NCBI GenBank assembly: GCA_025403435.1
Contig: JAJQZP010000045.1
Location: 372,001 to 436,000 of the forward strand
Direction: 5' to 3'
Source of the DNA: Artocarpus heterophyllus
Lineage: Eukaryota; Streptophyta; Magnoliopsida; Rosales; Moraceae
DNA length: 64,000 nucleotides
The position numbers and the translations under genes were made by a program. This document shows positions 5,864 to 49,837 of this stretch, in pieces. Under the pieces are notes generated by a model. It did no database searches. It was not told where the DNA came from and saw only the letters and a list, made by a program, of their open reading frames with translations. Every line of letters begins with the position of its first letter. Positions within the stretch are counted from its first letter, which is position 1.

Positions 5864-7576
5864 AACTAGAGAAGAACGTCTGGAAAAAGCCTCAACCAAT
5901 TGGTCTTTCTTACTATTCTCTTTCCACGATCGAAATACAGGTGGTCGCACATCGTACAGTTTTTCCTCCAATGACCTCTCCTTCCAACCACTTGAGAAAA
6001 CTAAAAGCTAAGGTTTCAAATGTTAAACAATAACTCTGTAGGAGTTTCACAGTTTCTTTCTTTAAAATACTCTCTCTATACTTCTTAAATGATACGAGGA
6101 ACAAAGAAAAATAATTCTCTTTATATGGTAGTGGAATTTGGGTTAATCCCTATCAGATTACGCTTCAAAATTCGAGTCTGGATTAACTTCTGATAAAAAA
6201 CACGTCAAAAAATGCGTAACAGGATTATTGCACGGTCGGCCTATAGAACTCATGCATTGGCCTGCTGAACTAGCTGCATCCACCTGCTGAACTCAACAAT
6301 AGGCCTATCGACCGAGCAATAATTTGGATATCTTAGAATATCTTATTTCATAAGTGAATCTTAGGTAGAACCTCAGTTTTAATTCAAATAACCTAATAAA
6401 GAAGTTATCTGATTAAAACAGTCATATGCAGATAATCTCATATCAAATAAAATATTATCCAAATAATTTAACATTTTTATCTTGAATTAATCTACAAAAT
6501 TAATTCAACCGAAAGACCAACATATATTATTAAATCCAATCTATTGAATTTCATTCAAGCTAATAATTAACATAAGTCATGAATATATAAGAAAAACATG
6601 TAGTATCGTTACAGGAATTATTATAAGCCAGCAAATGGGACCTGATTTACAAATATAGATCAAGCTCCTATAATTATAAAATAACAAATCCTAGACACAT
6701 ATATTTTATAATTATCAACTCTAACGCTATTCCACTATAAGCTTACAGCTGCACTCTCGAACTATATAGAATTACGAAGTTCCAATAAGCTAATCATCCA
6801 TGACATATCGTAATGTGTAACATCCCCAAAAGATATTCATAATTGGCTTAAGGATAAAATCTGTTTTACCTTATCAATTATTTTTATCTCATGTTACTAT
6901 CTATAAATAGTATACTATTCGGTTACACCTATGTATCCAAATATTTTAGTGCTCTAGTCTTCCAATTACAGGATAATGCCTATAAGAGAATATTATTAAC
7001 TCTACAAAAGAGCTATAGAATCCATACTTATGAATAACAAACTTACGTCAATCAAGAGTCATGTCTCCAACGTATCGGTATAAGTACCTTCATCTAATTC
7101 AGGATGTCAGCCTTTGATATATCAAAAGATATAAGTCAAGAATACGGGCCCATTAATTCATTTCAGGATTAAGATGCAACACATATGATTGTCTAAAGTG
7201 GATTGATTTAAATAAACGGAGTTAGTAATCAAATCAATTCAACTTTTTATCTCAATTCAATTTATCATCACTTATAACAATATACCAATGTTTGTATCCA
7301 TAGAGTCCCACTCTGATGACCAAGATAAGTCATCTTCCGGTAGGGACGTAGACAATATAACAATCTTAACATAAATAAAGGGCCCGGCTTTATTCACTTG
7401 ATTGCGGACCTTATCATTTAGACTATCACCTTTAAAATTTTTGTCTTCCGCATAATCTGTCAATCATATGCATGATCTTAAAGTTTTAGACTAACAGTCT
7501 CAGACTTTTGTCTACTTATCATATATTCAACATAAATAAACATAAAGAAGACAACATTTGATATTTGAAAATAAAT
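5864..7576. mobile_element. Family-A solo LTR, copy 1, left segment
   Basis: Aligns throughout with 23757-25000 and then 34109-34690 (copy 2). Shared blocks include CTCTCCTTCCAACCA, GTATCGTTACAGGA and GAGCTGCACTCTCGAACT, and near the right end CTTCCGCATAATC. Its first ~160 bases are missing, replaced by the CACTA-type DNA. It is interrupted at TAAAT (7572-7576) by the 8.2-kb element and resumes at 15796. No internal retrotransposon region adjoins it, so it is a solo LTR. The parent family is not identified. Confidence 0.75.
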
Positions 7577-9552
7577 TGTGACACCCGTTATTCTTCTAAC
7601 GGGTATTGAGGTAATTAAATTAATTTTTAATGTATAAAAAAAAATTGCTTCATTTAAATTTATTTTATAATATTTATTTTTATCTATTTTTAAATTTTTT
7701 TAAAATTCTCCTATATTTATTTAGTATGATTACTAAAAAGCCTTAGAACTTTTAATAAATCTCAAAAATGTCATATTGGCATTATGTGTGTTAAAGTCTT
7801 TAGATGAGACATAAGGATATCTTTTCCAACTACTCTTGACCCTCATTTTCTTTATTTCCTCCGTGACATGCTTCAACATGTCTCCTCTATAATTGTTTCT
7901 ATCATTTCTCTTCAAAGACTTCATCTTTTCTTCCTTTCTCTTCGACGGTTCCCACACTCTTCTTCTCATTTCTTTGCTGAAGCAAAATACTTAGAGAACT
8001 TCTTCAAGGCAGCCATAAAAATCAGCCACCATCACCTTCATTTGAGCAAGAATTTCAGTCATACCGAAGTAAAGGAACCTGTTTTGAAGCCATTTCAAGC
8101 TTCCAACTAACCATAATCCGAGGTTAGAATCTTATGAACAAATTTAGTCTTTCATTTATAAATTTTCTTTTATACTAAAGGATTATTCAAATTTGCGTTC
8201 TTAAACCTAAGTATATGTTTGTTGCTATTTTGGAGCATATGTATGAAGTCTAAGTGTATATGCCCTAGACAGAAAATTTATATTGTTAAACTTTGTAATA
8301 CCTCTATGGGCAGTGGTTATTTCTTGAAATTCTAAGATTAAATTAAAATAAATTTTATGAATGTAGTTGTATGTTGTGCTTTAGTTTTAATTGTCCTTAT
8401 GCACGCCTTAGGATCAAGGGAGTATGGAGCTAACGTTAATTGATTCCAGGATTAAGAGACTGTTGATAAGCTTAAAAGGTAGGGATTCTATTACTCATCT
8501 TTTGTGAGGTTTTTATAGAATTAAAATTGATTGTTTTGCCGCAATATATCTATATCTATGTTGAACTGATATTATATGAGTATCACATATGAAACTATGA
8601 CATGGACTCGTCTTGTATTGTACGGCGAGGAACATAATGAATTGACACATGTTATAAATTGAGAAGCATGGTTAGGAAAACTGACTATATTAATAATGAT
8701 TTAATATAGAGAAATGGTGAGACATGAAGAGGGCGACGGTTACGTCCTTGGGCATGAATACCCTAAAAGGTAAAATAGGGGGAAGGCGATGACGCTTCCT
8801 TGGGTTGAAAGTCCCAGAACACACTGTACAGGAATCGATTTGGTGAGGACTCGGGGCTTGATGTCCCCTCACCGGAACACCCTTGGAATGTTTATAGGGT
8901 GATCAAGTGCGCCCATTTGGGTTTCGATGAGTTGAGTGATACTCAATTTAACATGGATACCTAGGAACAATGATGATTGGTAATATTTGTATAAATGTGT
9001 AATTATGACACTTGGTAATGATTAACTACGGTATCCATAAGATGTGATCATAATAAACCTCATAATCTGGAATATGATGTAACTTATTAACCATGCAGAT
9101 TTTAATGTGGTAATGATAAAAACCTAAAGGTGAGTAATGGCTTTCTCTACTGAGCATAGTGTTGCTCATACCCTTATGTTTATATCTTTTCAGGACTCAC
9201 TAAGTGTGAGGTGGCTACGAGAAATATAGTTGAGGAAGTGATGTAACTATATTACATTGGGACTGCTTCAATCGTTGAGAATGTTCTTCATGATAATGTA
9301 AGCATCAATTGTTACTTTCTGTGACTGTATTACAATGTGTTGAGGGTTAAAATGATGATGACAACAGTTTATATTATTAAATTTAAGGTGCTACATTAAA
9401 ACTGTGGTTTATTTGTCGTTTATATTTTTATTTTTGAGTTGAGAGTTTTCATTTAAGTCCCGGGCAAATTTTATTTTTAAGGTTTTACTTTTATTATTTA
9501 TTTTTATTTTATCTCATTAAAAAACTGTTAACCCCCACATAGGGGCGTTACA
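7577..9552 (+). repeat. 5' LTR of the LOG-carrying element
   Basis: Starts TGTGACACCCG and ends GGGGCGTTACA. The start contains a perfect 8-bp inverted repeat, ACCCGTTA / TAACGGGT, around a TTCTTC loop (7583-7604). Small open frames within it (about 60-80 codons) recur identically in the right LTR, show no family resemblance and are regarded as chance. Confidence 0.95.
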
Positions 9553-9559
9553 GAATTTT

Positions 9560-9572
9560 TGGTATCAGAGCC
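9560..9572 (+). promoter_or_regulatory. Primer binding site, initiator-Met tRNA
   Basis: TGGTATCAGAGCC is complementary to the 3' end of plant initiator tRNA-Met. It lies 7 nt after the left LTR, as expected for minus-strand priming. Confidence 0.9.
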
Positions 9573-11040
9573 TAGGTTCGGTTAACCTAGGGAGTGTAGC
9601 ACCACTTTAAAAAAATATATTTTTGAGATGGTTTTGAAGCTGAATTTTCATTGTCATCATCAAAATGAACCTTCACATTGATTTATACAGTCTAGAAGGA
9701 TGTAACATGGAAAGGCCATAGAATGAAAATACTTATGGTTATATGAGTACAATAATTATATAGAAGGAAAGTATTAATAGTTATAAGGGAATGATAATTA
9801 TATGGAATGAGTTTATATGTAGAATGCTTATGAGAGATTCGTATAATATTAGGATCTATAAGCATATCTAATTCGTATAAACGATGAGAAATTCGTGTAG
9901 ATACGAGGATTTAAGAGCCTTTTGTCTCGTGAAAAACAATAAGAAATATAAGGCTTGACTTATTGATTTTAAAGTTTGACATAGATATGCCAAATTTTTC
10001 GTAATTGATTCAAACCTAAGTAATGATTATGTGTGGATTCGATGGAGCACATAAGTGTCAATAACTTTTCTTAAAAGTTCTATTTATTTGAGGAATATGA
10101 TATAAGTTGGGAATCATGGTATTGAATCTTGAGAGAGATAAATGTTAGACTTTTGGTCTGTTGAGACTGTGTAAAGTCTAGAATGCATGAATCTCAAAAT
10201 TGGAATATTTCGTTACGTACATTGTATTTAAGTGTATCAGTGAATCTTTTGGTTACTTAAGGTTTTGTTATATGAGGAAATTATATATTGTATAAGTAGA
10301 ATTGTGGGGATTGTAGATGTTCTTAAGTAGTAACATCAAGTGTCTTTGTTCGTTGATATGGTCTACGTTGAAAGACGTAAATCGTATTGATTTCAAGGTT
10401 AGTCGCATTCTAAACCCTTGGTAGTAATGATGATGAATCCATTGATAGATGTTGAGTATTAGGAATAACATATGGGTGTATGCATTGTTCAATAAGGTTT
10501 TGATTAAAACAAAATTATTTGAGTTGCTGGAAGATTGTGTTGTTATGAAATGATTTTAAATATCATTCAGGAAGATCCTTGTTGTCGTTAAATTAGATTT
10601 GTTGTTCATAGTTAACTTTATCTATAGTGGGCTTTAAATTGAGTTTAAGATTTATACAAATTGGTTTTCAATTTTATGTTTGTTATTTAACTCGTTCTAA
10701 ATGTGTTAAGGCCGAAACAACCTGACCATTTTCAACTAAGAACATTTGGGCCTAGTTCAAATCTTAAATCAGTTTGATTCACACTGTCTCTCTCACGTGA
10801 TCTCTATACGTGTCATATACAGTGGTTTAATCATTGTTTACATATACGTTTACTGTGCATAGGAGCTTATTTCTCCGAGTTCACTTTTTCTCTCTTAATT
10901 TGTTATTTTCTCTCTAAATCGCAAATCCTCTTCTTTTTCATTAGAAATTCTTCTTTTCCTCTAAAAGAAGAAGGAATTCTAGGATTCTGCAATTTACTAT
11001 CTTAATTTTTCCTTTCTATTTACTCTTCTTTCATCTCATC
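9573..11040 (+). other. Long leader of the LOG-carrying element
   Basis: About 1.47 kb without a plausible gene. No gag remnant could be recognised. The last ~250 bases are pyrimidine-rich, like a plant 5' leader. They contain a perfect 10-bp stem (TTCTTCTTTT / AAAAGAAGAA, 5-nt loop, 10948-10972) about 70 nt upstream of the first gene. Confidence 0.7.
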
Positions 11041-11562
11041 ATGGACCCAAAGTACCAACACCTGAGAAAGTATTTCCCATCACTCTCCCAAAAGATTCTC
11101 AGAAAGAAATACAAGGCTAGAATTACTCGGTTGTGGATTCTTATGCGTTTTGGTATCCCTTGTGATGTGAGAATGTTAATAGAGGGGAAAATCCGTCCGA
11201 GTGACTTTAGTCAAGATGTCGGTTTACCAGGAACAGGTACCAGTCGTAGTGCAATGAAAAGAAGAGCTCGTGCCATCGTGGTCACTTGTAACAAATGTGG
11301 AAGACAAAATTGTAACGGTAAATGTACTTCACCTGGTTATATGTCAACGAATAGAGAGGATAAAATAAGGTTTTGTAGGGAAGGACTTTCAAAGGAGAAC
11401 TTGGATAGCATCAATCCTCCTCTCCACGGTCACCCTAGTGGATATGTTCAAGGAGCTATTTTTAAACTCTGGCCTAAATTTTATACAGAAAGACAACGCC
11501 TCAGGAATATGGTATTTTTAGATCCTGTTTGTCAAGCCATAAGAAAACTGGATGGGGAATAA
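11041..11562 (+). CDS. Arg/Cys-rich putative nucleic-acid-binding protein (carlavirus NABP-like)
   Basis: 173 aa from ATG, ending in TAA; intact. The N-terminal third is strongly basic (residues 9-30), followed by a hydrophobic stretch with IPCDV (39-43). Then come a Gly/Ser hinge (61-70), a basic patch KRRAR (73-77) and a four-cysteine cluster C83-x2-C86-x4-C91-x3-C95. After it sits PGYMSTN (98-104) with a downstream Phe and Gly. The order of hydrophobic PxDV segment, KRRAR patch, Cys cluster and PG-x-S-x-N tail resembles the small Cys-rich nucleic-acid-binding proteins of carlaviruses (Betaflexiviridae), some of which are RNA-silencing suppressors. The Cys spacing is shorter than in those. 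The cluster also resembles a retroviral zinc knuckle (CX2CX4HX4C) with His replaced, so a divergent nucleocapsid-like origin is the alternative. RNA or DNA binding is inferred from charge and Cys pattern. Homology needs a profile search. Confidence 0.6.
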   Translation: MDPKYQHLRKYFPSLSQKILRKKYKARITRLWILMRFGIPCDVRMLIEGKIRPSDFSQDVGLPGTGTSRSAMKRRARAIVVTCNKCGRQNCNGKCTSPGYMSTNREDKIRFCREGLSKENLDSINPPLHGHPSGYVQGAIFKLWPKFYTERQRLRNMVFLDPVCQAIRKLDGE

Positions 11563-12207
11563 GTCATCGCCCTATAAAGGTTATTTAGTCTTTACTTATT
11601 TGAAGCAGTTTTAGCTGATGTTCAACAGTTTGTGTTTTTCTTTTACTCAGAATATTTGCTTTTGTGTTTGAAATAATTGTGATTATTAGATTGATACAGT
11701 AAGTGTTAATATCTTATTTAATTTATGATTTTCTTAAATATATATATATAATAAAATATATTATCTTATCAGACACGTTACATACGGTACAGTAATATGT
11801 TTGAATTTTGAAAAGCTTATCCAGATATTTCAAGATTTGTGTCTCAAATTTCAAAAGTTCTACAGTATTTGTCGTTTATATTAAATTTCTAGACTCGGTG
11901 TATATTTGTCAAAAAGTCTACAGTTGTGTCAAGAGGGTCTTCTGTCGAATTGTTCTCAATTGTCAAAAGTTATACAATTAGAGTCTAATCTTTTTCAAAA
12001 AGTAAATCAGATTTTCTGTAAACTATCAATCACCTTATCTTACTTTCTTATCTGCACAAGATTTTGTTTAAATCTTTGGATTACCTTTTCATTACCTACT
12101 CGTCTATCTCTTTAGCCCTTTTTGTATATTTCTCATCTTTAAAATCTCATGTAGAACCCGAAGTCTAAGTGGAGCAGACATTAAGCAACCACTTCTATAA
12201 ACCAAAT
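11563..12207 (+). other. Spacer between the two cargo genes, possible intron
   Basis: 645 bases, mostly very AT-rich, with no supported gene. A donor-like CA|GTAAGT (intron would start at 11699) and a pyrimidine-rich acceptor ending CTCATGTAG (AG at 12153-12154) would bound a 456-nt AT-rich plant-type intron ending 53 nt before the LOG start codon. Splicing is inferred only. Confidence 0.35.
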
Positions 12208-12858
12208 ATGTCTACCTCCCAGTCCACGAAGAAAATAAAGAATGTCTGTGTCTTTTGTGGTTCCAGCTTTGGAAAAGATAAAGCTTATTTAGAAGCTGCA
12301 AATCACTTAGGGCAAGTCCTAGCACACAAGAAGATTAACATAATCTATGGGGGTGGTAGTATAAAAATGATGGTAAATATGGCACTAGCAGCTAGGTCTA
12401 GCGACGCTACTGATGTAAGAATTTGGCCTCATATTCCAGTTGAAGGAAACCTTTGTAAGGAAGCCATAGGTAAGGGAGAAGGAGTCAGGAGTATCCCTAT
12501 AAATTTTAAAGACATAATCTACAATTCTGATGCTTTTATAGCATTACCTGGTGGTCTAGGTACTCTTGAGGAAATATTTATAGTTGCTTGTGGGCAATTG
12601 TTGGGCTTTTATTCCAAACCTTTGGGTCTGCTGAACGTAAAGGGTTTTTATGACGGTCTTTTGAAATTTCTAGATTACGCTGTGGAAGAAAACATCACTA
12701 CAGAATCGGAGAGACAAATCTTTGTCACTGCTTCAACAGCTGAGGAATTGATAGATAAAATGCAAATCACACATCTAGAATCCGACACTGCAACATCCAA
12801 GCTTGAATGGGAAAGGGAAAGCCGAGAGCGGCCAATTGATTTGAATCTCCATCTGTAA
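12208..12858 (+). CDS. LOG-family cytokinin riboside 5'-monophosphate phosphoribohydrolase homologue, retrotransposon-borne
   Basis: 216 aa, close to the usual 200-225. The start is the ATG at 12208, since an in-frame stop lies at 12166. LOG enzymes release active cytokinin bases from nucleoside monophosphates in the cytosol and nucleus. Visible family features: VCVFCGSS (13-20), IIYGGGSI (45-52), FIALPGGLGTLEE (110-122, the signature), KPLGLLNVKGFYDGLL and RQIFVTASTAEELI. There are differences. The IGLMG normally after YGGGS is KMMVN, and the usual MHERKAEM helix before SDxFIALPGG reads INFKDIIYN, so the conserved Arg is not in place; the segment between (about 66-100) is hardly alignable. 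The gene has no introns, whereas plant LOG genes have several, so it was captured from mRNA. The open frame is intact, so loss, change or retention of activity are all possible. Confidence 0.88.
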   Translation: MSTSQSTKKIKNVCVFCGSSFGKDKAYLEAANHLGQVLAHKKINIIYGGGSIKMMVNMALAARSSDATDVRIWPHIPVEGNLCKEAIGKGEGVRSIPINFKDIIYNSDAFIALPGGLGTLEEIFIVACGQLLGFYSKPLGLLNVKGFYDGLLKFLDYAVEENITTESERQIFVTASTAEELIDKMQITHLESDTATSKLEWERESRERPIDLNLHL

Positions 12859-13798
12859 TCTTTTTGTTTTATCTTTGGCATGTAGGCATGTGTGTCCGTA
12901 TTTCGTGTGTTACGAATAACCGTTTGCCTTGTATTCTGTGTTTCTTGTGGTACGTTGTTGTTCAATCTTTTAGATTCATTGAGCCTAATGCCGGGATGGC
13001 TGGATACGGAGTACTTGATGCTCTCGAAACGCATCCTTCTTAAGGTCCGATCTTTTGTTTATCGATGTTTTTGTATTCTATAAGCATGCATGATATGGAT
13101 AGCTGGTATACGGAGTGCCTTGTACTCTCGAAACGTATCCGTATTATGTTTGTAATGTGTAATATTCTGTTAATATTATGTGGAAGTACCAGAGTCAGTT
13201 ATGGGGATATTCCATATGAAATATGAGTATATTATTTGGATTGAATGTTTGTTTCATGAGGATAGCTGTTTAATGAAAAATATGTCGGGTATGTTTGCAA
13301 CTCTGAGATTCCGTTTAATATCTCTATGAGTAAGTTTAATGTATAGTTTTGAATAAAAGTGTTTGTGATATATGTTTTATGATTATGTTTTAGTTTATTA
13401 GTTGAGGTATGAAATCAAATATATTTGACTTTTCCTTACTCAAAAAGGAAAAGGAACCTAAAGATGAAGTATATAAAATTTCTCTAGCAATCTCCTTAAA
13501 TGTGATTGTAAATCACAGTCCATGGACAATGAAGGACTGGAATCATGGTATGATAAATATGTATGCCTGATCAGATTCTTAGACTATTATACGGTGTTAC
13601 AAGTTGAAACTTGTCAGAAATACTCTCATTGAGGGATTTAGGAGTAAGATTTATTATGCAAGTAAATAAGTGGAGATACGATAACTTAAATTTGGAGGAC
13701 AAACAACATTAACGGTTTAGACTCAGAATTGGAATCATAGTGGAATCATAATTTTTACTAGTATTACTAGAATTGAAATTTCGAGGACGAAATTTCTT
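12859..13798 (+). other. 3' region of the element with two tandem hairpins
   Basis: No supported gene. Two similar ~35-nt stem-loops occur 103 bp apart at 13002-13036 and 13105-13140. Both carry ACGGAG, a 9-nt spacer, then CTCTCGAAACG followed by GCATCC or GTATCC. The stems pair through ATACG/CG-ATCC-type ends plus GAG/CTC. Confidence 0.6.
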
Positions 13799-13813
13799 TA
13801 AGGGGGGTAGAGC
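13799..13813 (+). promoter_or_regulatory. Polypurine tract of the LOG-carrying element
   Basis: TAAGGGGGGTAGAGC directly before the right LTR, the expected plus-strand priming site. The AATTTCGAGGACGAAATTT motif just upstream is typical of chromoviruses. Confidence 0.85.
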
Positions 13814-15790
13814 TGTGACACCCGTTATTCTTCTAACGGGTATTGAGGTAATTAAATTAATTTTTAATGTATAAAAAAAAAATTGCTTCATTTAAATTTA
13901 TTTTATAATATTTATTTTTATCTATTTTTAAATTTTTTTAAAATTCTCCTATATTTATTTAGTATGATTACTAAAAAGCCTTAGAACTTTTAATAAATCT
14001 CAAAAATGTCATATTGGCATTATGTGTGTTAAAGTCTTTAGATGAGACATAAGGATATCTTTTCCAACTACTCTTGACCCTCATTTTCTTTATTTCCTCC
14101 GTGACATGCTTCAACATGTCTCCTCTATAATTGTTTCTATCATTTCTCTTCAAAGACTTCATCTTTTCTTCCTTTCTCTTCGACGGTTCCCACACTCTTC
14201 TTCTCATTTCTTTGCTGAAGCAAAATACTTAGAGAACTTCTTCAAGGCAGCCATAAAAATCAGCCACCATCACCTTCATTTGAGCAAGAATTTCAGTCAT
14301 ACCGAAGTAAAGGAACCTGTTTTGAAGCCATTTCAAGCTTCCAACTAACCATAATCCGAGGTTAGAATCTTATGAACAAATTTAGTCTTTCATTTATAAA
14401 TTTTCTTTTATACTAAAGGATTATTCAAATTTGCGTTCTTAAACCTAAGTATATGTTTGTTGCTATTTTGGAGCATATGTATGAAGTCTAAGTGTATATG
14501 CCCTAGACAGAAAATTTATATTGTTAAACTTTGTAATACCTCTATGGGCAGTGGTTATTTCTTGAAATTCTAAGATTAAATTAAAATAAATTTTATGAAT
14601 GTAGTTGTATGTTGTGCTTTAGTTTTAATTGTCCTTATGCACGCCTTAGGATCAAGGGAGTATGGAGCTAACGTTAATTGATTCCAGGATTAAGAGACTG
14701 TTGATAAGCTTAAAAGGTAGGGATTCTATTACTCATCTTTTGTGAGGTTTTTATAGAATTAAAATTGATTGTTTTGCCGCAATATATCTATATCTATGTT
14801 GAACTGATATTATATGAGTATCACATATGAAACTATGACATGGACTCGTCTTGTATTGTACGGCGAGGAACATAATGAATTGACACATGTTATAAATTGA
14901 GAAGCATGGTTAGGAAAACTGACTATATTAATAATGATTTAATATAGAGAAATGGTGAGACATGAAGAGGGCGACGGTTACGTCCTTGGGCATGAATACC
15001 CTAAAAGGTAAAATAGGGGGAAGGCGATGACGCTTCCTTGGGTTGAAAGTCCCAGAACACACTGTACAGGAATCGATTTGGTGAGGACTCGGGGCTTGAT
15101 GTCCCCTCACCGGAACACCCTTGGAATGTTTATAGGGTGATCAAGTGCGCCCATTTGGGTTTCGATGAGTTGAGTGATACTCAATTTAACATGGATACCT
15201 AGGAACAATGATGATTGGTAATATTTGTATAAATGTGTAATTATGACACTTGGTAATGATTAACTACGGTATCCATAAGATGTGATCATAATAAACCTCA
15301 TAATCTGGAATATGATGTAACTTATTAACCATGCAGATTTTAATGTGGTAATGATAAAAACCTAAAGGTGAGTAATGGCTTTCTCTACTGAGCATAGTGT
15401 TGCTCATACCCTTATGTTTATATCTTTTCAGGACTCACTAAGTGTGAGGTGGCTACGAGAAATATAGTTGAGGAAGTGATGTAACTATATTACATTGGGA
15501 CTGCTTCAATCGTTGAGAATGTTCTTCATGATAATGTAAGCATCAATTGTTACTTTCTGTGACTGTATTACAATGTGTTGAGGGTTAAAATGATGATGAC
15601 AACAGTTTATATTATTAAATTTAAGGTGCTACATTAAAACTGTGGTTTATTTGTCGTTTATATTTTTATTTTTGAGTTGAGAGTTTTCATTTAAGTCCCG
15701 GGCAAATTTTATTTTTAAGGTTTTACTTTTATTATTTATTTTTATTTTATCTCATTAAAAAACTGTTAACCCCCATATAGGGGCGTTACA
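13814..15790 (+). repeat. 3' LTR of the LOG-carrying element
   Basis: Same as 7577-9552 apart from one extra A in the A-run near 13870 and T for C in the final CCCCCATATAGG block, as far as I could compare by eye. Confidence 0.95.
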
Positions 15791-15795
15791 TAAAT

Positions 15796-25000: not shown

Positions 25001-26280
25001 TGATAACTCTAGTTTAGAGAGTTATTTGGCCACTTTTAATTAACAAATATTACTATGTTTTTGAGAAAAATTACATGAAACATCCAACTTTTTCATAAAA
25101 GCATGATTTTATTGATGTAGGTTGAGGAAAGAAAGAAAACAAAACAAAAGGGAGCAAAAGCACAAGAAATCCGAGACCAACCTTGTTGGCAGAGCTGAAG
25201 CGCCGCGGCGCCCAAAGAGCAGCGCCGCGGCGCCCAAGGGAAGTGCAAGAACGCTTGGCAGAAACTCAGCGCCGCGGCGCTGGGGAAGGAGCGCCGCAGC
25301 GCTGGAAGAGAAGGGCCGCGGCGCCAGAGTGATCCTGAACCACGATTTTTGGACGCAAAACAAAGGATTTGTTATCTTAAGAGTAGTATAAATAGAATAG
25401 TATGGGGTAGTTAGGTTATCAGTTAATTTTGAAGAGCGTTGTTTATTTTTCTTAGGAGCCGTCAAGCATTCCGGAGTAAGAAGTGAAGAATTGGTGACAG
25501 AATTTCTTGCTCTCTTAACTCTTGATGTTTGATTCAATTAAATTTTCAGATTTTATTACTTTTTCAATTATGTTCTAATTTTCTTAGTTAGGGCTATGAT
25601 GTAACCTAATCATGACGATGTGAATTTCATATTTATGCACCATAATTGATTTTATTCATGTGAGTTATGTGTTATTATGTTTAATGCTTTTAAATGATTA
25701 GCTACCATTTAAATGATCTGATGTGCATGTTCAAAACTGAGAAGGGAGAATTATGCAAATGCTTCATCTAACATATAACCATGAATTAAATATGGATAGA
25801 GATATACGATATTATTTGTGTGGCTTCATTTGGAAAGTTCATGAATCCTAATGCATTCTGATTTATTTAAATTCACATAGAGATATAGTGAGTTAATAAA
25901 CTGAGTAGGTTTGCTATACCTAGAGATAGGATAGTAAATAATTTAGGAATTTCCGTCATCACATGTGTATTATTGATTGGGTTGCGTAATTTTATGAAAT
26001 TCATATCTAGTGATTATGGTGAAATCAAATGCCTTAACGCCTTGTCTTATTGAAGTATCTTTTGAGATTGATTGCAATTTTTATTTTTAATTTAGTACTT
26101 TAGTTCAGTAATTTATTCAATCACAACCTCATATGATCAACTAGATAAACCTTAGAGTTAATCTAATTTTAGTACTTAGTTAGATTATTATACAACAGTC
26201 CCTGTGAGACGATACTCTTACTCACTATTGTATTACTTGATCGATAACGTGCACTTGCGTTAGTGGATTTTATGCGAACA
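25001..26280 (+). repeat. 5' LTR of the Athila-type element
   Basis: TGATAACTC...GCGAACA. The U3 has five GCGCCGCGGCGC-type palindromes between 25200 and 25326, followed by a TATA box (AGTATAAATAGAATAG near 25384). It lacks a 45-bp block, containing one more palindrome, that is present in the right LTR. Confidence 0.95.
25384..25399 (+). promoter_or_regulatory. LTR TATA box
   Basis: GTATAAATAGAATAG, about 60 bases after the GC-palindrome array. It is the likely Pol II promoter of the genomic RNA, and the same site occurs in the right LTR near 33214. Confidence 0.6.
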
Positions 26281-26286
26281 AGTTTT

Positions 26287-26304
26287 TGGCGCCGTTGCCG
26301 GGGA
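26287..26304 (+). promoter_or_regulatory. Primer binding site, tRNA-Asp
   Basis: TGGCGCCGTTGCCGGGGA, complementary to the 3' 18 nt of plant tRNA-Asp(GTC) including CCA. It starts six bases after the left LTR. Confidence 0.92.
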
Positions 26305-26402
26305 CTACTTGTTTAATACTAATTAATATTAATACCGGATAACCCTTGATTTAATCTAGTTTCTTTTATTTTGTTCATTTTTTTTTAGGAGTGCGTTGGT
26401 GT

Positions 26403-27470
26403 ATGAGAAGAACTAAACAAGGGGAACTTGTTAAGTTTGATTCAGAAATCGAGCGTACTTTCAAAAGACTGTTAAGAGAACAGAGAAATCGCACTGAGAA
26501 AATGGCGGATGCAGGTGAAGCTGAAAACCCTCGCCGACTTTTGAGAGATTATGCAGCACCAACTGTTCAAGGTGCCACTTCAAGCATTAGGAGGCCAGCT
26601 ATTCAAGCAAACAACTTTGAGATCAAGCCATCTCTCATCCAAATGATTCAACAATTGGTGCAATTTAGTGGGCTACCTTGTGATGATCCAAACGCCCACA
26701 TTGATGCATTTCTCGAAATCTGTGACACTATTAAATTTAATGGAGTGTCAGATGATGCAGTTAGACTGAGATTGTTCCCATTCTCGCTGAGGGATAAAGC
26801 CAAGAATTGGCTCACATCTCTTCCTGCAGGATCAATCACCACCTGGGATACTATGGCCCAAAAATTCCTCGGTAAGTTTTTCCCTCCAGCAAAATCTGCA
26901 AAAATGCGTAACGATATCACTAATTTCTTGCAGATGGATAATGAGTCGTTATACGAAGCATGGGAAAGATTCAAGGAGCTGCTAAGGAGGTGCCCACATC
27001 ATGGATTACCAGTCTGGATGCAGGTACAAACTTTTTATAATGGGTCTAGTGCAAGTATCCGGGCTACTATTGATGCAGCTGCAGGTGGGACATTAAATAA
27101 TAAAACACCTGAGGAGGCTTTTGATCTAATAGAAGAGATGGCATCAAACAACTATTAGTGGCCTACTGAAAGGCTACAAACTAGGAGAACGGTAGGAGTT
27201 CATGAAGTGGATGCATTATCTGCACTCACAGCTCAATTTGAAGCACTTAACAGAAAGATAGACCATATGAGTGCTTCAGCTATGAAAATTCAGAATGCCG
27301 TATGTGAATTTTGTGGTGGAGGACATGCCGGCAATGAATGCCAGGTAGGTAACAATTTTGCTCAACCTTCTGAAAATGCTAATTTTGTTGGAAATTTTAA
27401 CAGGTCACAAAATAATCCTTATTCCAACACTTACAACCCGGGGTGGCGAAATCATCCGAATTTTCATGGG
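26403..27470 (+). pseudogene. Athila gag, with premature stop
   Basis: First ATG at 26403; a frame opening at a GTG at 26391 is not needed. Codons up to 27158 encode a retrotransposon Gag domain of Athila type (PSLIQMIQQLVQFSGLPCDD, RLRLFPFSLRDKAKNWLTSL, ESLYEAWERFKELLRRCPHH). A TAG at 27156-27158 then interrupts, apparently one substitution from CAG. The same frame continues through a region with a CEFCGGGHAGNEC zinc knuckle (C-x2-C-x3-H-x4-C, about 27304-27342) to the deletion junction. Gag would form the particle and bind the RNA genome; the stop removes the knuckle. Confidence 0.88.
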
Positions 27471-29382
27471 GCATGCTGGATTTTATAGGCGATTTATAAA
27501 AGATTTTTCAAAAATTGCTAGACCTTTGTCTAACTTGTTGGTTAAAGATGCCCCGTTTGTGTTTTCTGATGAATGCTTGCAGGCCTTTAACACTTTGAAA
27601 GAAAAGCTTGTGTCAGCACCTATCATGGCAGCGCCTGATTGGGATTTACCTTTTGAGCTCATGTGTGATGCAAGTGATTCAGCAGTTGGAGCAGTGCTGG
27701 GCCAACGAAAGAACAAAATTTTTCAAACTATATATTACGCTAGTCGAACCTTGTCGGGAGAACAACTGAATTACACAACTACAGAAAAGGAACTTCTGGC
27801 GGTAGTTTTTGCTTTTGATAAATTTCGTTCGTATTTGATTGGTTCAAAAGTAGTTGTTTACTCTGATCATTCTGCTCTGAAATACTTACTTGAAAAGAAG
27901 GAATCCAAGCCCAGGTTAATCAGGTGGATATTGTTGCTTCAAGAGTTTGATTTGGAGATCAAGGATAAAAAGGGAACTGAGAACCTAGTTGCAGATCACT
28001 TATCCAGAATTCCCAATCATGATGAAGTGGGCAGCCCAATTCTGGAGGAATTCCCTGATGAGCAGGTATTCTCTATCAAATCCCCACGAGTCCCCTGGTA
28101 TGTTGATTTGGTAAATTTTTTAGCAAGTAATGTTCTACCCCCTAATTTGTCATATCAACAAAAGAAAAAATTCTTTTCTGATGTTAAACACTATTTTTGG
28201 GAAGACCCTTTCTTGTTTAAAATTTGCACAGATCAGGTGATAAGAAGATGTGTTTCTGAGGACGAAATGGTAAGCATTTTACAACTTTGTCATGATGGGG
28301 AGGCTGGTGGTCATTTTAGTGGTTCTAAAACTGCTGCTAAAGTATTACAATCAGGTTTCTATTGGCCCACACTTTTTAAAGATGCACATTTCTATGTAGC
28401 CTCATGTGATCGATGTCAAAGAATGGGAAATATTTCTAGGAAAAATGAGATGCCTTTAAACAACATTCTTGTGTGTGAACTATTTGATGTTTGGGGTATT
28501 GATTTCATGGGACCATTTCCACCTTCATTTGGTAATGAATACATTTTAGTAGCCGTTGAGTACGTATCTAAGTGGGTAGAAGCAGCTGCTGTACCAACAA
28601 ATGACACTAAGGTCGTGGTCAAATTTCTGAAAAGGAACATTTTTTCCCGATTTGGCACCCCTAGGGCAATCATAAGTGATCAAGGGTCGCATTTCAGTAG
28701 TAAGCAATTTGAGGCACTCTTGGGAAAATATGGGGTTACACATAAGGTGACACTAGCATATCATCCTCAGACTAGTGGTCAAGTGGAAATTTCAAATAGG
28801 GAAATCAAGAGGATTTTGGAGAAGACAGTAAATGCCTCTAGGAAGGATTGGTCTATTAAGTTAGATGATGCACTTTGGGCATACAGGACTGCATTCAAAA
28901 CTCCCATCGGGATGTCCCCTTTCAGGCTAGTTTTTGGAAAAGCATGTCACCTGCCAGTGGAACTAGAACATAAGGCTTATTGGGCAACTAAATGTTTGAA
29001 TTTTGATGCGCAGTTGACAGGTGAGGCTAGGTTGCTGCAACTAAATGAGCTGGATGAATTTCGGCTTGATGCTTATGAGAATGCAAAGCTTTACAAGGAG
29101 AAAACGAAAAGATGGCATGATAAGCACATTCTCAGAAAAGAATTTGTAGTTGGTCAACAGGTCTTGCTCTATAACTCTCGCCTTAAATTGTTTCCAGGTA
29201 AGCTGAAATCTAGGTGGTCAGGACCATTTACAGTAACACAAGTCTTTCCATCTGGAGCAATAGAGGTGGCACATGATACCAAAGGCAAATTTAAGGTCAA
29301 TGGTCAGCGCTTGAAGCCCTACTTTGGAGGTGGAGTTAACAGGAATAAAAACACCATCGAATTACAAGCTCCTACCAAGTGA
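27467..29382 (+). pseudogene. Athila pol remnant: RT thumb, RNase H and integrase
   Basis: The open frame begins abruptly at [20 protein letters not shown], the connection region after the RT active site, in a frame different from gag. Protease and the RT catalytic part (YxDD) have been deleted between gag and here. Downstream domains are whole. RNase H keeps [22 protein letters not shown] and ADHLSR. Integrase keeps the HHCC motif (H...H...CDRC), the catalytic Asp in GIDFMGP, the Asp in SDQGSHF and the Glu in [11 protein letters not shown]-terminal domain follows ([20 protein letters not shown]). The frame ends TGA at 29382. It cannot make reverse transcriptase, so mobility depended on another element. 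Confidence 0.9.
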
Positions 29383-30184
29383 CATTGAGACAGTCTAGCT
29401 GAAGACAATAAAGCAAGCGCTTCTTGGGAGGCAACCCAAGCATTTTCTTATTTATCATCTTCAAAATAAAAAAAAAAAATAATAAATAAATAATTTAGGT
29501 TATTTTTGTTTAACATTATCATTTTGTTTTGCAGGAGTCGAAGTCAATAAGGGAGCATCAAAACAAAAAAATCGCTGGTAAACTGTTTTTCTTGGCAGAG
29601 TCCAAGCGCCGCAGCCCTCAATTGAGAGCGTCGCAGCGCAGTTTTGGAGAATGAAAATCTCGTTGGCAGAAGGAAAGCGCCGCGGCGCTATAACATCAGC
29701 GCCGTGGCGCCATGAAAAAAAAAAGGCAGAACGACAGCGCCGCAGCGCTGTGTGCGTGATTCCCAAAAAAAAAAAAAAGGGTGGCTTTAAACCGAACAAT
29801 CCCTCTTTCTTTCCCTCATTCCCACCATTTACTTTCTCTCTCTACAACAAAACTCTTCTCTCCCACTTCTTCTTCTCCTCCTTCTCTCTAGAAAATTTTG
29901 CCATCCTCATCCTCCAACGTTGTGGCTGCCATCTCCTTTCAGTTCGTCTTTCTCTTCAAGTAAGTTGCCTCCTTGTCATATCTTTGAGTATTTTTATTTA
30001 ATTTTTGTTATTTTTATTTTGTTTATTATTTCATATTTGTGTGATTATTTTTTTTTCTTTAATTTGCACTTGTTAGGTTTTCTTTCATGATTCTAGTTAG
30101 ATTTTGATATAGGTGGTTTTTGGTAAGTGAAATTTTGACGGTGTTAGGTTCTACTCTTTAACGTGTGTGCCATACAAAAAAAAA
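29383..30184 (+). promoter_or_regulatory. Inter-ORF region with GC palindromes and leader-like tract
   Basis: Holds five more GCGCCGCGGCGC-type palindromes (29606-29750), each following TTGGCAGA or ACGACA-type context as in the LTR U3. Next come CTTTAAACC (TATA-like, about 29784), a pyrimidine-rich leader (29795-29900) and a GTAAGT donor-like site near 29960. It looks like a second promoter module for the 3' ORF; this is inferred. Confidence 0.45.
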
Positions 30185-31230
30185 ATGGCTTCTAAGCGCA
30201 CACGAACTGTAGCTTCATCATCCACCCCATATACTCGGTTTGTGAGTGAGGCCGCAAGAAAAAGACATAATACTGCCATTGTTAAAAAAACTGTAGTACC
30301 GGAGCGGGGTTTAGACTTTAGCGATGGTTTTTCTACCTTTTTTTTAATATGGTTATGCAAAGAGGATGGAGCAAATTTCTCGAGCAACCCGAGGCGGCTG
30401 TAGTTCCACTTGTCCGGGAATTTTATGCCAATGTTCCAGAGCACACTAACCTCCAGGTAAGTGTCCGAGGTAAGATGGTTCGTTTTGATAAAACAACCAT
30501 CAACAGGTATTATGGGCTTCGAAATATTGATAATGATGATTATTATGAATACCTCAATGAACATTTGGATTTTGAGGAAGTTCTTGGCACCATAGCCACT
30601 GCAGGCACCACATGGAAATTAACACGGGGAGGCGAAGCGGTGTCGTTTCCCTCCTCTGCGTTAAACAGGGAGTACAAAGCGTGGTTGTATTTTATTGCGT
30701 CGAAATTAATGCCTGTCATGCATTTTTCTGATGTTACCAAGGACAGAGCTGCCTTGTTATTTGCTATTGTTACAGGTAAAACTATTGATGTGGGAAACGT
30801 AATCCAAGACAGTATTCTGAGAACTGCTATGGGTTCCACGACTGGTGGTTTGGGTCACTCTTCCCTCATCACACGCTTATGCCTCGACGCCGGAGTCCCA
30901 TTCGACCAAGAGGAAGAATTATTGCAACCCATGAAAATCATTAACAAAAAGGTCGTGGGAAGCTTCAGAGACCAAGAAGTACGCCCTCCGATTCGGCAAG
31001 ACACTGGTGCCTCCGCCTCGAGCCAACCCCCTCAGCCCGAACAAGTCACTCCCATAGCTCAACCGCCTGCTGTCCCTGCCCCTGAGTTACCAATCAGTGA
31101 TCGCTTGCGTCGTTTGGAATTGGGCCTAGAATATAATATTGCCATGACGCGGGCAATTGCTCGACACTTAGGCATGGATGAATCTCAACTTCCACCTTCA
31201 CCGCATTTTCCTGATCACTCTGAGCCTTAA
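30185..31230 (+). pseudogene. Athila 3' ORF (putative plant transposon protein), frameshifted
   Basis: ATG at 30185 (MASKRTRTVASSSTPYTRFV) starts one frame that runs to a T-run at about 30338-30345. The family-like continuation (MQRGWSKFLEQPEAAVVPLV, then REFYANV, VRGKMVRFDKTTINRYY) is in the next frame, to TAA at 31230. One base gained or lost in the homopolymer explains the break. The C-terminal half has a Pro/Gln-rich linker (about residues 214-245 of the second part) and a final helix (ISDRLRRLELGLEYNIAMTR). This ORF occupies the position of the env-like ORF of Athila elements, but I see no signal peptide or membrane segment. Its function is unknown. Confidence 0.75.
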
Positions 31231-32766
31231 TTTCACTTGCCATTTTTATTTCATTATTTCGGTTTTCTTTTCATTCTCAATTTCTTAAGGTTTTTGTTTT
31301 GTTTGTTTTCCTTGTTGTCCAGATCACTTCTCGGAGTTCCCATGGCTGCACAAGTTCAATTGGCCTCATTTGTTATTCAGGGGGTTTCCTTACCTTTTCT
31401 TCTTTATTTATACATTGAGGGCAATGCTTTATTTAGTTTGGGGGGGGAAACAAAAATTTTTGTTTGTTAAAACTTGTGTTCACCCTTTTTTTTTGAAACT
31501 TGAAGTGATACATTCCTGCATTGATGAATCTGGATATGATTGAATCCTTTATTTGGATGTCTTAAAATTTGTAGGAGGTATGAATTTTGTCTAAACTTGT
31601 GATGGATTTGTTGTTTAATTCTAATTCTGAATTTATGATCTATTTCTTGAGCACAAAAATCCTGAATTTTTGAATTGTGTGTATGTCCATTAATGTTCAC
31701 CCATGTTTTAGAATTCATCTGATTTTCTCTCGAGGCGAAATCCTAGGCTACATCTGACTGAAAACATGATTTAGGCCATTTTTGGATCGTTTGAGCCGTT
31801 CAAGCCAACCTTGGTTAAATATCCCTAGTCACCTTGTTGAGCCTTGATGCATTAACCATTCTTTATTTTTCACCCACATTTGTTAACCCAGCCAATCATT
31901 TTTACCTTGTCCCACATCTCGTAAACATGTTGATTTCTAAAGAAGGTAAGCGTATTTTGGGAGGTAGAATGGAGCAAGGGAGTTGTTGAGTTGTTTCTTG
32001 AAGCATAGAAGTTTTTGAGCCTTACGTTGTATTAATTTTGCTACTTAAGGATCTTATTAGTTTTCATATGATTTTATTCAAAAAAAAAAATGAAATGAAA
32101 AAAAAAAAAAAAAAAACACAACAACAACACAACCAGAAAAAAAAAAAAAAAAAGGATGAAACAACAACAGTGAGTGACTAAGAAAATGAAAGTGCATAAT
32201 TGAGTGCAGTTGAGGGCGATGGAGTGAGTTTGGGGATAGGGTCTAAATTGATCAGAAGTTGGATGGCTTGAAGAGAAGGGTAAATGTTGATTGTGCAGTT
32301 GAAGTGGTTTAAGGGTATACAACCAAGAGTGATTCTAATTGGAGTCTAGAAATCAACATGGGAGGGGTGAATTGAGCCTAAAATTTACTTTTATCTTACC
32401 TCTAGCCCAGCCTGACGTTACAAGCTTAATAAAGCCCTAATGATTTTTAGTTGGATGACTAGCCTACATTAGTGGAGAAAGAAATGAAAGGTGAACCTAT
32501 GAAACATGTTTCTGTGCACAACTCATCAAAGCTTCTCAGAGTAATGTGGATGTTACTGAACTGCATACAATTTGAAAAGAATGGATAACACACACACACG
32601 GGTCATGAAATTAGAATTAGTCTTAACCAGCAAATCGATCTCACTGTTTGGATGGAATTTGTTCTTTTCTGTGAATTGTAAGATGGAAAAATTTTGGAGG
32701 ACATCTTGAAGGATTTATTGGTCCATGTTTGTGTTACTTCTTGATTTTGCTCGAGGACTAGCAAAA
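31231..32766 (+). other. Athila 3' non-coding region
   Basis: Contains ACATTGAGGGCAATG followed by TTTAGTTTGGGGGGGGAAAC (31415-31451), a second polypurine-like tract usual in this lineage. An A-rich low-complexity run lies at 32080-32165. No gene. Confidence 0.7.
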
Positions 32767-32783
32767 GTTAGTTTGGGGGGTTT
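32767..32783 (+). promoter_or_regulatory. Polypurine tract of the Athila element
   Basis: TTAGTTTGGGGGGTTT immediately before the right LTR. Confidence 0.8.
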
Positions 32784-34108
32784 TGATAACTCTAGTTTAG
32801 AGAGTTATTTGGCCACTTTTAATTAACAAATATTACTATGTTTTTGAGAAAAATTACATGAAACATCCAACTTTTTCATAAAAGCATGATTTTATTGATG
32901 TAGGTTGAGGAAAAAAAGAAAACAAAACAAAAGGGAGCAAAAGCACAAGAAATCCGAGACCAACCTTGTTGGCAGAGCTGAAGCGCCGCGGCGCCCAAAG
33001 AGCAGCGCCGCGGCACCCAAGGGAAGTGCAAGAACGCTTGGCAGAAACTCAGCGCCGCGGCGCTGGGGAAGGAGCGCCGCGGCGCTACGGCGGAAAAGAA
33101 GAGAAAAACAGAGAAGAAGCGCCGCAGCGCTGGAAGAGAAGGGCCGCGGCGCCAGAGTGATCCTGAACCACGATTTTTGGACGCAAAACAAAGGATTTGT
33201 TAACTTAAGAGTAGTATAAATAGAATAGTATGGGGTAGTTAGGTTATCAGTTAATTTTGGAGAGCGTTGTTTATTTTTCTTAGGAGCCGTCAAGCATTCC
33301 GGAGTAAGAAGTGAAGAATTGGTGACAGAATTTCTTGCTCTCTTAACTCTTGATGTTTGATTCAATTAAATTTTCAGATTTTATTTCTTTTTCAATTATG
33401 TTCTAATTTTCTTAGTTAGGGCTATGATGTAACCTAATCATGACGATGTGAATTTCATATTTATGCACCATAATTGATTTTATTCATGTGAGTTATGTGT
33501 TATTATGTTTAATGCTTTTAAATGATTAGCTACCATTTAAATGATCTGATGTGCATGTTCAAAACTGAGAAGGGAGAATTATGCAAATGCTTCATCTAAC
33601 ATATAACCATGAATTAAATATGGATAGAGATATACGATATTATTTGTGTGGCTTCATTTGGAAAGTTCATGAATCCTAATGCATTCTGATTTATTTAAAT
33701 TCACATAGAGATATAGTGAGTTAATAAACTGAGTAGGTTTGCTATACCTAGAGATAGGATAGTAAATAATTTAGGAATTTCCGTCATCACATGTGTATTA
33801 TTGATTGGGTTGCGTAATTTTATGAAATTCATATCTAGTGATTATGGTGAAATCAAATGCCTTAACGCCTTGTCTTATTGAAGTATCTTTTGAGATTGAT
33901 TGCAATTTTTATTTTTAATTTAGTACTTTAGTTCAGTAATTTATTCAATCACAACCTCATATGATCAACTAGATAAACCTTAGAGTTAATCTAATTTTAG
34001 TACTTAGTTAGATTATTATACAACAGTCCCTGTGAGACGATACTCTTACTCACTATTGTATTACTTGATCGATAACGTGCACTTGCGTTAGTGGATTTTA
34101 TGCGAACA
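32784..34108 (+). repeat. 3' LTR of the Athila-type element
   Basis: As the left LTR but with an additional 45-bp block in the GC-palindrome array (about 33086-33130), giving six palindromes. Confidence 0.95.
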
Positions 34109-34722
34109 AATAACAAGTCTACGCTATCAAGAGTCATGCCTCCAACGTACCGACATGCATACTACTATAGAAACGTGGGTGTCACCCTTTGGTACATCAA
34201 AAGACACAAGTCGAGACAACAGACCCATTATTCATCTCAAGATTAAGATACAATACAAATGACTGTCTAAAGTGAATCGATTTGCCGAGACAGAATTATT
34301 AATCCAAATCAATTCACTTTATGTCCCGATCTAACACATTGTCACCTATGACAACGTGCTAATGTTTCTATTCACAGAGTCCAACTCCAATGGTCAAGAC
34401 AAACCATCTCCCTAAAGGGATATAGACAACATAACAATCTTTACATGAATAAAGCGCCCAACTTTATTCCCTCGATTGCGGATCATATGTTTTAGACCGT
34501 CACCTTAAGAATCGTGTCTTCCGCATAATCAGTCCATTATATGCTCAATTCTTAAGGTTTAGACCGACAGTCTCAGACTACTGTTTGCTTAACATATATT
34601 CAATAAATATGAACGTAAAGAGGACAAGATTTGATATATATAAATGAATAAATTCTTTATTGACAAAAATATCTCAAAAAACGTATTGCATTTTTTACTC
34701 CTTATGGCATGAATATCTAACA
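34109..34722. mobile_element. Family-A solo LTR, copy 2, right segment
   Basis: Starts with the AATAA duplication and continues copy 2 (ATCAAGAGTCATGCCTCCAA, CTTCCGCATAATCAG) to ATCTAACA. Followed by GTTGG and the 104-bp tandem repeats. Confidence 0.85.
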
Positions 34723-49075: not shown

Positions 49076-49837
49076 AAGTAGGGTTAATGAGACAATTAGC
49101 TCAATTACATTTATTAAATTAAAATATGACTCTAATTCGTAAAAATTCTACAAATGTCTCATAATGATATCATTAAAATTATTTATATATAATTATATAA
49201 TACAATATATAGTATTATTAAAATAATTATTATATCATTAAAGATATTTTAAATATTATGTTAGATTTGAATTTCATAATAATAATTTAGATAAATATTG
49301 TAATTTTTTTTTTAAAAAAGTGCTTATTGAAGGAAAAAGAAAGAAAAAAAAAATTAGTAGACTGAGGGCCCAACCGGGTCCAGCGAGCCATGGCCCAAAG
49401 CTGTAAAAACTTACAAAGTGCAACGACTGGCCTCCGAGAAAGAAGAAATGTGAATTACTTTGATGCCCTTACTTGGAGAATGTGAGCAATCGAGCTTAAC
49501 CAACCCTTTTGTCCCCTTTTCTTGGGGGTAATTTAGAGTGTGCCTGTGCAAAGGGTTTCAGAAAGTTAGTATCTATTTGAAACATGTTATATGTGAAAGG
49601 GTTTTTTTTTTTTTTTGGGATCAGATATAAGAGATGGCTTGCAGGAGAAAACATGTTGGGTATTGGTAAGAAAATAGGAAAAATCATGAATGGTGTTATG
49701 GTAAATTAAAGAAAAAGAAAATTACATAACGGCAAGTGAGCAAAACTGTTTCAAATATCAATATTTTAAATAAAAGTCCAGAAGTTTAAATGCTTTTGAA
49801 ATTAAAAATAATGCATGTAATTAGAACAGACATTAAT
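49076..49837. other. Intergenic stretch
   Basis: AT-rich. A small GC-richer block (49365-49440) contains GGGCCCAACCGGGTCC. No gene. Confidence 0.4.

Follow-up and report, generated by a model that had tools for sequence, protein, structure and literature searches.

Plant long terminal repeat (LTR) retrotransposons can carry extra open reading frames (ORFs), most of which, according to the available part of PMC9289625, are without known domains; the same source, citing Steinbauerova et al. 2011, reports that LTR elements in Citrus and Populus carry LOG/YgdH frames. We analyzed a 64,000-nucleotide stretch of the Artocarpus heterophyllus genome (contig JAJQZP010000045.1, positions 372,001 to 436,000 of the forward strand; referred to here as the window), in which an LTR retrotransposon at positions 7577 to 15790 carries two genes, one for a cysteine-rich protein (CRP) of the carlavirus type and, downstream of it, one for a LOG-fold protein. 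The family to which this element belongs, designated group A, is a large one in which the genes are mostly intact. We tentatively regard the element as a recently amplified, non-autonomous retrotransposon whose module of a CRP and a LOG-fold protein without the catalytic Arg acts on the host nucleus (silencing, transcription) and not through cytokinin release, a reading to which we give somewhat less than an even chance. The features of the element (protein lengths in amino acids, aa) are as follows.

7572 to 7576, no strand: 5′ target-site duplication TAAAT
7577 to 9552, plus strand: 5′ LTR, 1976 bp
9560 to 9571, plus strand: primer-binding site TGGTATCAGAGC, tRNA-Met type, 3′ of the 5′ LTR
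11041 to 11562, plus strand: CRP gene, 173-aa carlavirus-type cysteine-rich protein, from Pfam and family matches
11257 to 11271, plus strand: basic motif KRRAR, residues 73-77, conserved in the family
11287 to 11325, plus strand: Cys cluster C83, C86, C91, C95
12208 to 12858, plus strand: LOG-fold gene, 216 aa
12364 to 12375, plus strand: KMMV at residues 53-56, where other LOGs have GLMG
12502 to 12504, plus strand: Asn99, at the position of the catalytic Arg
12547 to 12573, plus strand: PGGLGTLEE, the retained PGGxGTxxE motif, including Glu122
12838 to 12855, plus strand: C-terminal DLNLHL, containing the LxLxL (EAR-type) motif
13799 to 13813, plus strand: polypurine-tract region, bounds approximate, with AAGGGGGG directly 5′ of the 3′ LTR
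13814 to 15790, plus strand: 3′ LTR, 1977 bp
15791 to 15795, no strand: 3′ target-site duplication TAAAT

All the hallmarks of an LTR retrotransposon (two LTRs, target-site duplication, primer-binding site and polypurine tract) are thus present, and the primer site TGGTATCAGAGC is one that we take to be of the initiator tRNA-Met type. One substitution and one single-base indel (in an A-run) separate the two LTRs. Substitutions accumulate at about 1.3e-8 per site and year, and at this rate the one LTR change corresponds to an age of some tens of thousands of years. Both coding frames, of 173 and 216 aa, are open, and the only further ATG-started frame of at least 100 aa in the element is an antisense one of 119 aa across the 3′ end of the LOG gene. 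The queries of a tblastn search were gag, pol and ORF3 from the Athila element in the window (described below), together with the gag and protease of a related element; none gave a match inside 7577 to 15790 at E 1e-3, which rules out a recognizable gag or pol; lacking these genes, the element is classed as non-autonomous. The first-pass annotation, made from the DNA letters, had described a complete LTR element with no gag or pol and two intact plus-strand genes, and on these points it was right. The tRNA-Met primer site fits a chromovirus (Tekay-like) and also Ty1/copia, and hence is not decisive; non-chromoviruses, according to the available part of PMC6317226, do not use tRNA-Met primers.

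The host genome (985 Mb) was searched with the LOG protein and with the DNA of positions 11000 to 12000. The protein query gave 6093 candidates at first look, of which the best 150 were scored; every one was 98-100% identical (at least 150 matches, window included), and an internal stop was absent from LOG in 149. With the DNA query (1970 candidates at first look, best 40 scored) all 40 were 99-100% identical (at least 40, window included). Both genes were intact in 32 of 35 other copies when read at the DNA level, in a sample that favours intact copies because it was picked by similarity to the window (28 of the 35 had been retrieved by their LOG match); the other three comprised one copy with a stop in the CRP gene, one without the CRP gene and one with an insertion in LOG. 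The arrangement of the cargo is identical in copies across many contigs, which speaks against an assembly artefact, and such near-identical copies on many contigs also exclude a single-copy capture. The first-pass annotation had named a lone copy or a faulty assembly as refutations; neither was borne out.

The first gene had been annotated as encoding a zinc-finger protein. The gene is here assigned to a family of carlavirus-type cysteine-rich nucleic-acid-binding proteins in plant chromosomes. This assignment is made because members of the family match Pfam, though the window protein by itself stays below threshold (best matches Viral_NABP, E 0.0058, and Carla_C4, E 0.083). A profile search with the CRP yielded 1094 proteins with E values of 0.01 or lower, and among the matches listed (best 120 of 1094) are relatives from Populus, Xanthoceras, Acer, Hibiscus, Gossypium, Rhamnella and Orobanche. 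When 32 family members were scanned against Pfam with a limit of E 0.01, 31 matched Carla_C4 (PF01623) and 28 matched Viral_NABP (PF05515); the database itself annotates PF01623 in 14 of 15 CRP homologues. Features conserved within the family are, in this order along the protein, the basic KRRA stretch, the Cys cluster and the NREDKI and HPSG blocks. According to the available part of PMC12172455, viral CRPs suppress RNA silencing and act as pathogenicity factors; the CRP of chrysanthemum virus B is additionally a transcription factor inducing hyperplasia.

Some candidates were discarded in the course of this analysis. A match of the CRP to KduD of NCBIfam (E 0.0004; score 20 vs a cut-off of 430) and one to a dehydrogenase in the PDB (E 0.017) were treated as chance, and a protease suspected by eye ahead of the Orobanche CRP P0241 corresponded to no Pfam protease at E up to 1. 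Scans of IMG/VR with the CRP and with the LOG confirmed no relatives.

The second gene is a LOG homologue, as had been annotated: the LOG fold and the PGGxGTxxE motif are present, and the protein matches TIGR00730 of NCBIfam above the cut-off, the cytokinin equivalog NF058542 remaining below its cut-off. The roles of individual residues were taken from CgLOG, in which, according to the available part of PMC4979012, Arg99 is catalytic and the active-site alanine mutants, S19A excepted, are almost inactive. The window element has Asn instead of this Arg, as do 35 of 35 other copies; in all of them Ile, Pro, Phe, Ile and Gly stand at the positions of the prenyl-pocket residues Met96, His97, Lys100, Glu125 and Trp129, respectively. 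With the catalytic Arg and five prenyl-pocket residues lost, cytokinin release by the LOG of this family, on which the first-pass interpretation relied, is not supported; the protein is best filed as a LOG homologue and not as a LOG enzyme. The LOG of related elements that keep the Arg and the Glu may still be an enzyme. On the branch leading to group A, codons 45-106 carry 34 nonsynonymous and 12 synonymous changes, against 17 and 15 elsewhere. Compensating frameshifts as the source of the altered active site were excluded, as the window and group D (introduced below) align in frame without gaps.

The LOG-fold protein ends in RPIDLNLHL, unchanged in 35 of 35 other copies, and LNLHL conforms to the EAR motif (LxLxL or DLNx(x)P). 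Among the best 120 of 5260 LOG relatives, 87 have LxLxL inside the last 14 residues, vs 1.7% expected from shuffled residues, and outside the tail the motif occurs once in the 24,616 residues of the same proteins. The monocot LOGs among the relatives listed (P0131-P0135) have no LxLxL tail; within the element groups, the strict motif is found in group A and in the single full-length group C protein. Of the EAR consensus forms, LxLxL is the more common one, most often located at the C-terminus, and the pathogen effector HaRxL21 binds TOPLESS via such a motif (available part of PMC9956375).

The pair was not newly captured by the window element, as is shown by a second genome search, in which an ordinary LOG (P0131) was used as the query. 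The best 150 places scored (at least 150 exist) were 43-51% identical, with an internal stop absent in 116, and 30 of them were fetched. A CRP frame lies close upstream on the same strand in 28 of these 30 divergent loci; in one of the other two (L065) it is situated approx. 2.6 kb upstream, beyond the fetched stretch, and no CRP was seen near the other (L057). The 30 loci were sorted into groups B (24), C (3) and D (3).

Elements of group D resemble that of the window in kind and have older LTRs (96.5% alike in the one copy read); its CRP is 93-95% and its LOG 68.5-69.4% identical to the window's. The corresponding values for group C are 72-75% (CRP, where full length) and 60-62% (LOG). In group C (L070), 3.6 kb around CRP-LOG is common to the copies at 94-96%; LTRs and a primer site were not recognized there, and the element ends were not resolved. 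Two noncoding stretches of the window element, in the CRP-LOG spacer (11849-11976) and 3′ of LOG (12859-13155), still align with group C at approx. 73-78%, as though conservation extended past the coding sequence.

Group B has an Asp-type primer site, TGGCGCCGTTGTCGGG, which differs from that of the window element, and end repeats that agree at 96.2% across 1.2 kb or more. Its genes are arranged in the order gag (PF03732), protease (PF13650), CRP and LOG; the gag is of the Athila type and shares 40% identity with that of the Athila element in the window, whose pol had no match at E 1e-3 in the three 9-kb stretches of group B. Because the primer sites differ and non-chromoviruses avoid tRNA-Met primers, the CRP-LOG module appears to reside in at least two LTR lineages, provided that the primer sites have been identified correctly. 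In cotton, protein P0229 consists of a CRP followed by a C-terminal piece of LOG (E 2e-7), and the LOG cluster P0051 and the CRP cluster P0146, each with a longest contig of 8723 bases, suggest a single contig. To judge from these comparisons, the pair is old and is shared by three divergent element groups besides the window family.

Both genes are under purifying selection between element groups. For group A vs group C (L048), dN/dS is 0.16 for CRP (dS 1.05) and 0.27 for LOG (dS 0.89), and for A vs D it is 0.13-0.29 and 0.43-0.44, respectively; the neutral decay that the first-pass annotation had allowed for is not what these values show. Between groups A and D (L071, L052, L060 and L067 vs the window), dS is far higher for LOG (0.42-0.46) than for CRP (0.07-0.18), and this inequality indicates recombination, i.e. 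module shuffling, between elements. Within the family, variants in the 35 copies were divided into shared (in two or more copies) and singleton (in one copy). The shared CRP variants comprise 17 synonymous and 7 nonsynonymous ones (pN/pS 0.11), and the singletons 5 and 17 (pN/pS 0.90; Fisher p 0.0014 against shared), a contrast which indicates that the CRP gene is constrained during replication and neutral after insertion.

Under the proposal that the module acts on the host nucleus, both proteins would be expressed from the LTR or from an internal promoter. The CRP would bind nucleic acid via its basic motif and Cys cluster, as its viral relatives do, and would dampen RNA silencing or serve as a transcription factor. 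The LOG fold would be a scaffold or ligand sensor, with the LxLxL tail engaging TOPLESS-type co-repressors; more element RNA would be the outcome, and gag and pol would be supplied in trans by a postulated autonomous element. A wider claim, which we consider possible and rather unlikely, is that the module serves counter-defence: it would combine a silencing suppressor of viral type with a hormone enzyme converted into a recruiter of co-repressors, would move among unrelated LTR lineages throughout the eudicots and would cause bursts like that of the window family.

A number of observations weigh against an action on the host nucleus. Between the primer site and the CRP start there are 36 ATGs, so that a full-length LTR transcript would be translated poorly unless splicing or an internal promoter intervenes. 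The window CRP is below the Pfam curated cut-offs (17.1 vs 23; 13.3 vs 20.9), and its predicted structure (pLDDT 54.5) is too poor for a fold search. The 120 LOG relatives in which tails were counted are not independent, many being closely related; 33 of them, including Xanthoceras proteins with an intact MHERK motif, have no LxLxL, and neither do the tails of group D (DLNLSM) and group B (DLSL) in the strict sense. The LOG variants of the family show no contrast between shared (6 synonymous to 4 nonsynonymous) and singleton (12 to 7; Fisher p 1.0), in a sample biased to good LOG matches (28 of 35); in the 7 copies not fetched by LOG match the ratios are 4 to 1 and 4 to 5 (p 0.30). In group B both genes are decaying: stop-free frames remain in 6 of 21 CRP and 17 of 24 LOG copies, with a pooled pN/pS of 0.52 and 0.42 (for CRP, 21 of the 24 copies were counted, the L061 row being dropped for gaps and L057 and L065 having no CRP match in the stretch).

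Several of these observations would be expected if the genes were passengers, captured long ago, of no benefit and riding a successful LTR backbone, their intactness merely reflecting the youth of the burst. The LTRs, one substitution apart in approx. 1976 bp, the decay of group B, the neutral appearance of the CRP singletons and the missing contrast in LOG all agree with this explanation, which is however already strained by dN/dS values of 0.16 and 0.27 between groups at dS near 1, by the pN/pS of the shared CRP variants and by the recurrence of the pair in distinct element groups and in cotton; we hold it to be improbable. The main rival, in our estimate unlikely, assigns the CRP a role in cis: it would coat the element RNA and carry it into helper particles, replacing the gag nucleocapsid, with the LOG-fold protein as an accessory. 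Nucleic-acid binding of the CRP family, predicted by homology, is in line with such a role, as are the gag not found in the window element and the constraint on CRP in replicating lineages, which is expected of a cis-acting protein. The same role leaves LOG unexplained, and it is at odds with group B, where the CRP stands beside the element's own gag and protease and so is not simply a gag substitute.

There is also little probability that the LOG-fold protein still releases cytokinin and, together with a CRP acting as a growth-promoting transcription factor, stimulates cell division and thereby germline transmission. The exchange of Arg99 and the five prenyl-pocket residues in all copies compared argues against this, as do the changes in codons 45-106 on the group A branch. 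What is left of the host-manipulating cargo proposed in the first-pass annotation is a possible role by homology only, and probably not one through the release of cytokinin.

Elsewhere, the window contains a second LTR element of the Athila type (25001-34109), with LTRs 96.2% alike and an Asp-type primer site at 26287. Its genes are the following.

26355 to 27158: gag
27349 to 29382: RNase H/integrase
30322 to 31230: Transposase_32-type ORF

This element is inserted into an older repeat, a relative of which flanks the LOG element (6456-7576). Antisense within its gag frame (26901-27007, minus strand), a match to Rfam snoR71 was detected at 52 bits, above the gathering score; this Rfam family may include retrotransposon sequence. 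Tandem-like repeats with a unit of roughly 400 bp, 73-83% alike, occupy positions 46670-49079.

In the literature searched, which excluded most subscription journals, no carlavirus-type CRP in an LTR retrotransposon and no EAR motif in a LOG protein were among the matches listed, and the CRP-LOG pairing, the EAR tail and the enzyme loss were not met there. LOG ORFs in LTR elements were already published. Retrotransposons are usually seen as dependent on gag and pol; in the window element two extra genes are the sole genes, and these genes, which have host-manipulating relatives, are conserved between element groups and recur together despite differing primer sites. If the proposed functions are true, transposons hold effectors resembling those of viruses and pathogens, and an exchange of CRP genes between RNA viruses and retrotransposons, in either direction, becomes testable. 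If the counter-defence reading is true, plant retrotransposons carry virus-like effector pairs of their own.

The closest described systems share parts of this arrangement. In the LOG/YgdH elements of Citrus and Populus a LOG-type ORF likewise lies inside Gypsy-type LTR elements, which group B resembles in its Athila-type gag and Asp-type primer site; the window element differs from them in its tRNA-Met-type primer, the missing gag and pol, the viral-type CRP and a LOG without the catalytic Arg. With the plant LOG enzymes (structures 2a33 and 1ydh) the window protein has the fold and the PGGxGTxxE motif in common, at 34-41% identity in structural alignment, and unlike them it has Asn for Arg99, KMMV for GLMG, a changed prenyl pocket, a C-terminal LxLxL and an intronless frame. 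The cysteine-rich proteins of carlaviruses, allexiviruses and mandariviruses share the Pfam matches (PF01623, PF05515), the basic motif and the Cys cluster with the CRP family of the elements, which in contrast is plant-chromosomal, mostly 178-185 aa long (173 here) and has extra conserved N- and C-terminal parts. EAR-motif pathogen effectors (HaRxL21, Nkd1 and, reportedly, Jsi1) have an EAR-type motif or TOPLESS binding, and a host-manipulating role is proposed for the window element too; those effectors are secreted by pathogens, whereas the LOG-fold protein is encoded by a transposon and would be a predicted effector. Finally, Ty3/gypsy elements of orchids carry an m6A demethylase domain (available part of PMC9289625), likewise an extra domain of plant-RNA-virus type kept through replication, although the domain is another one and its enzyme activity has been demonstrated.

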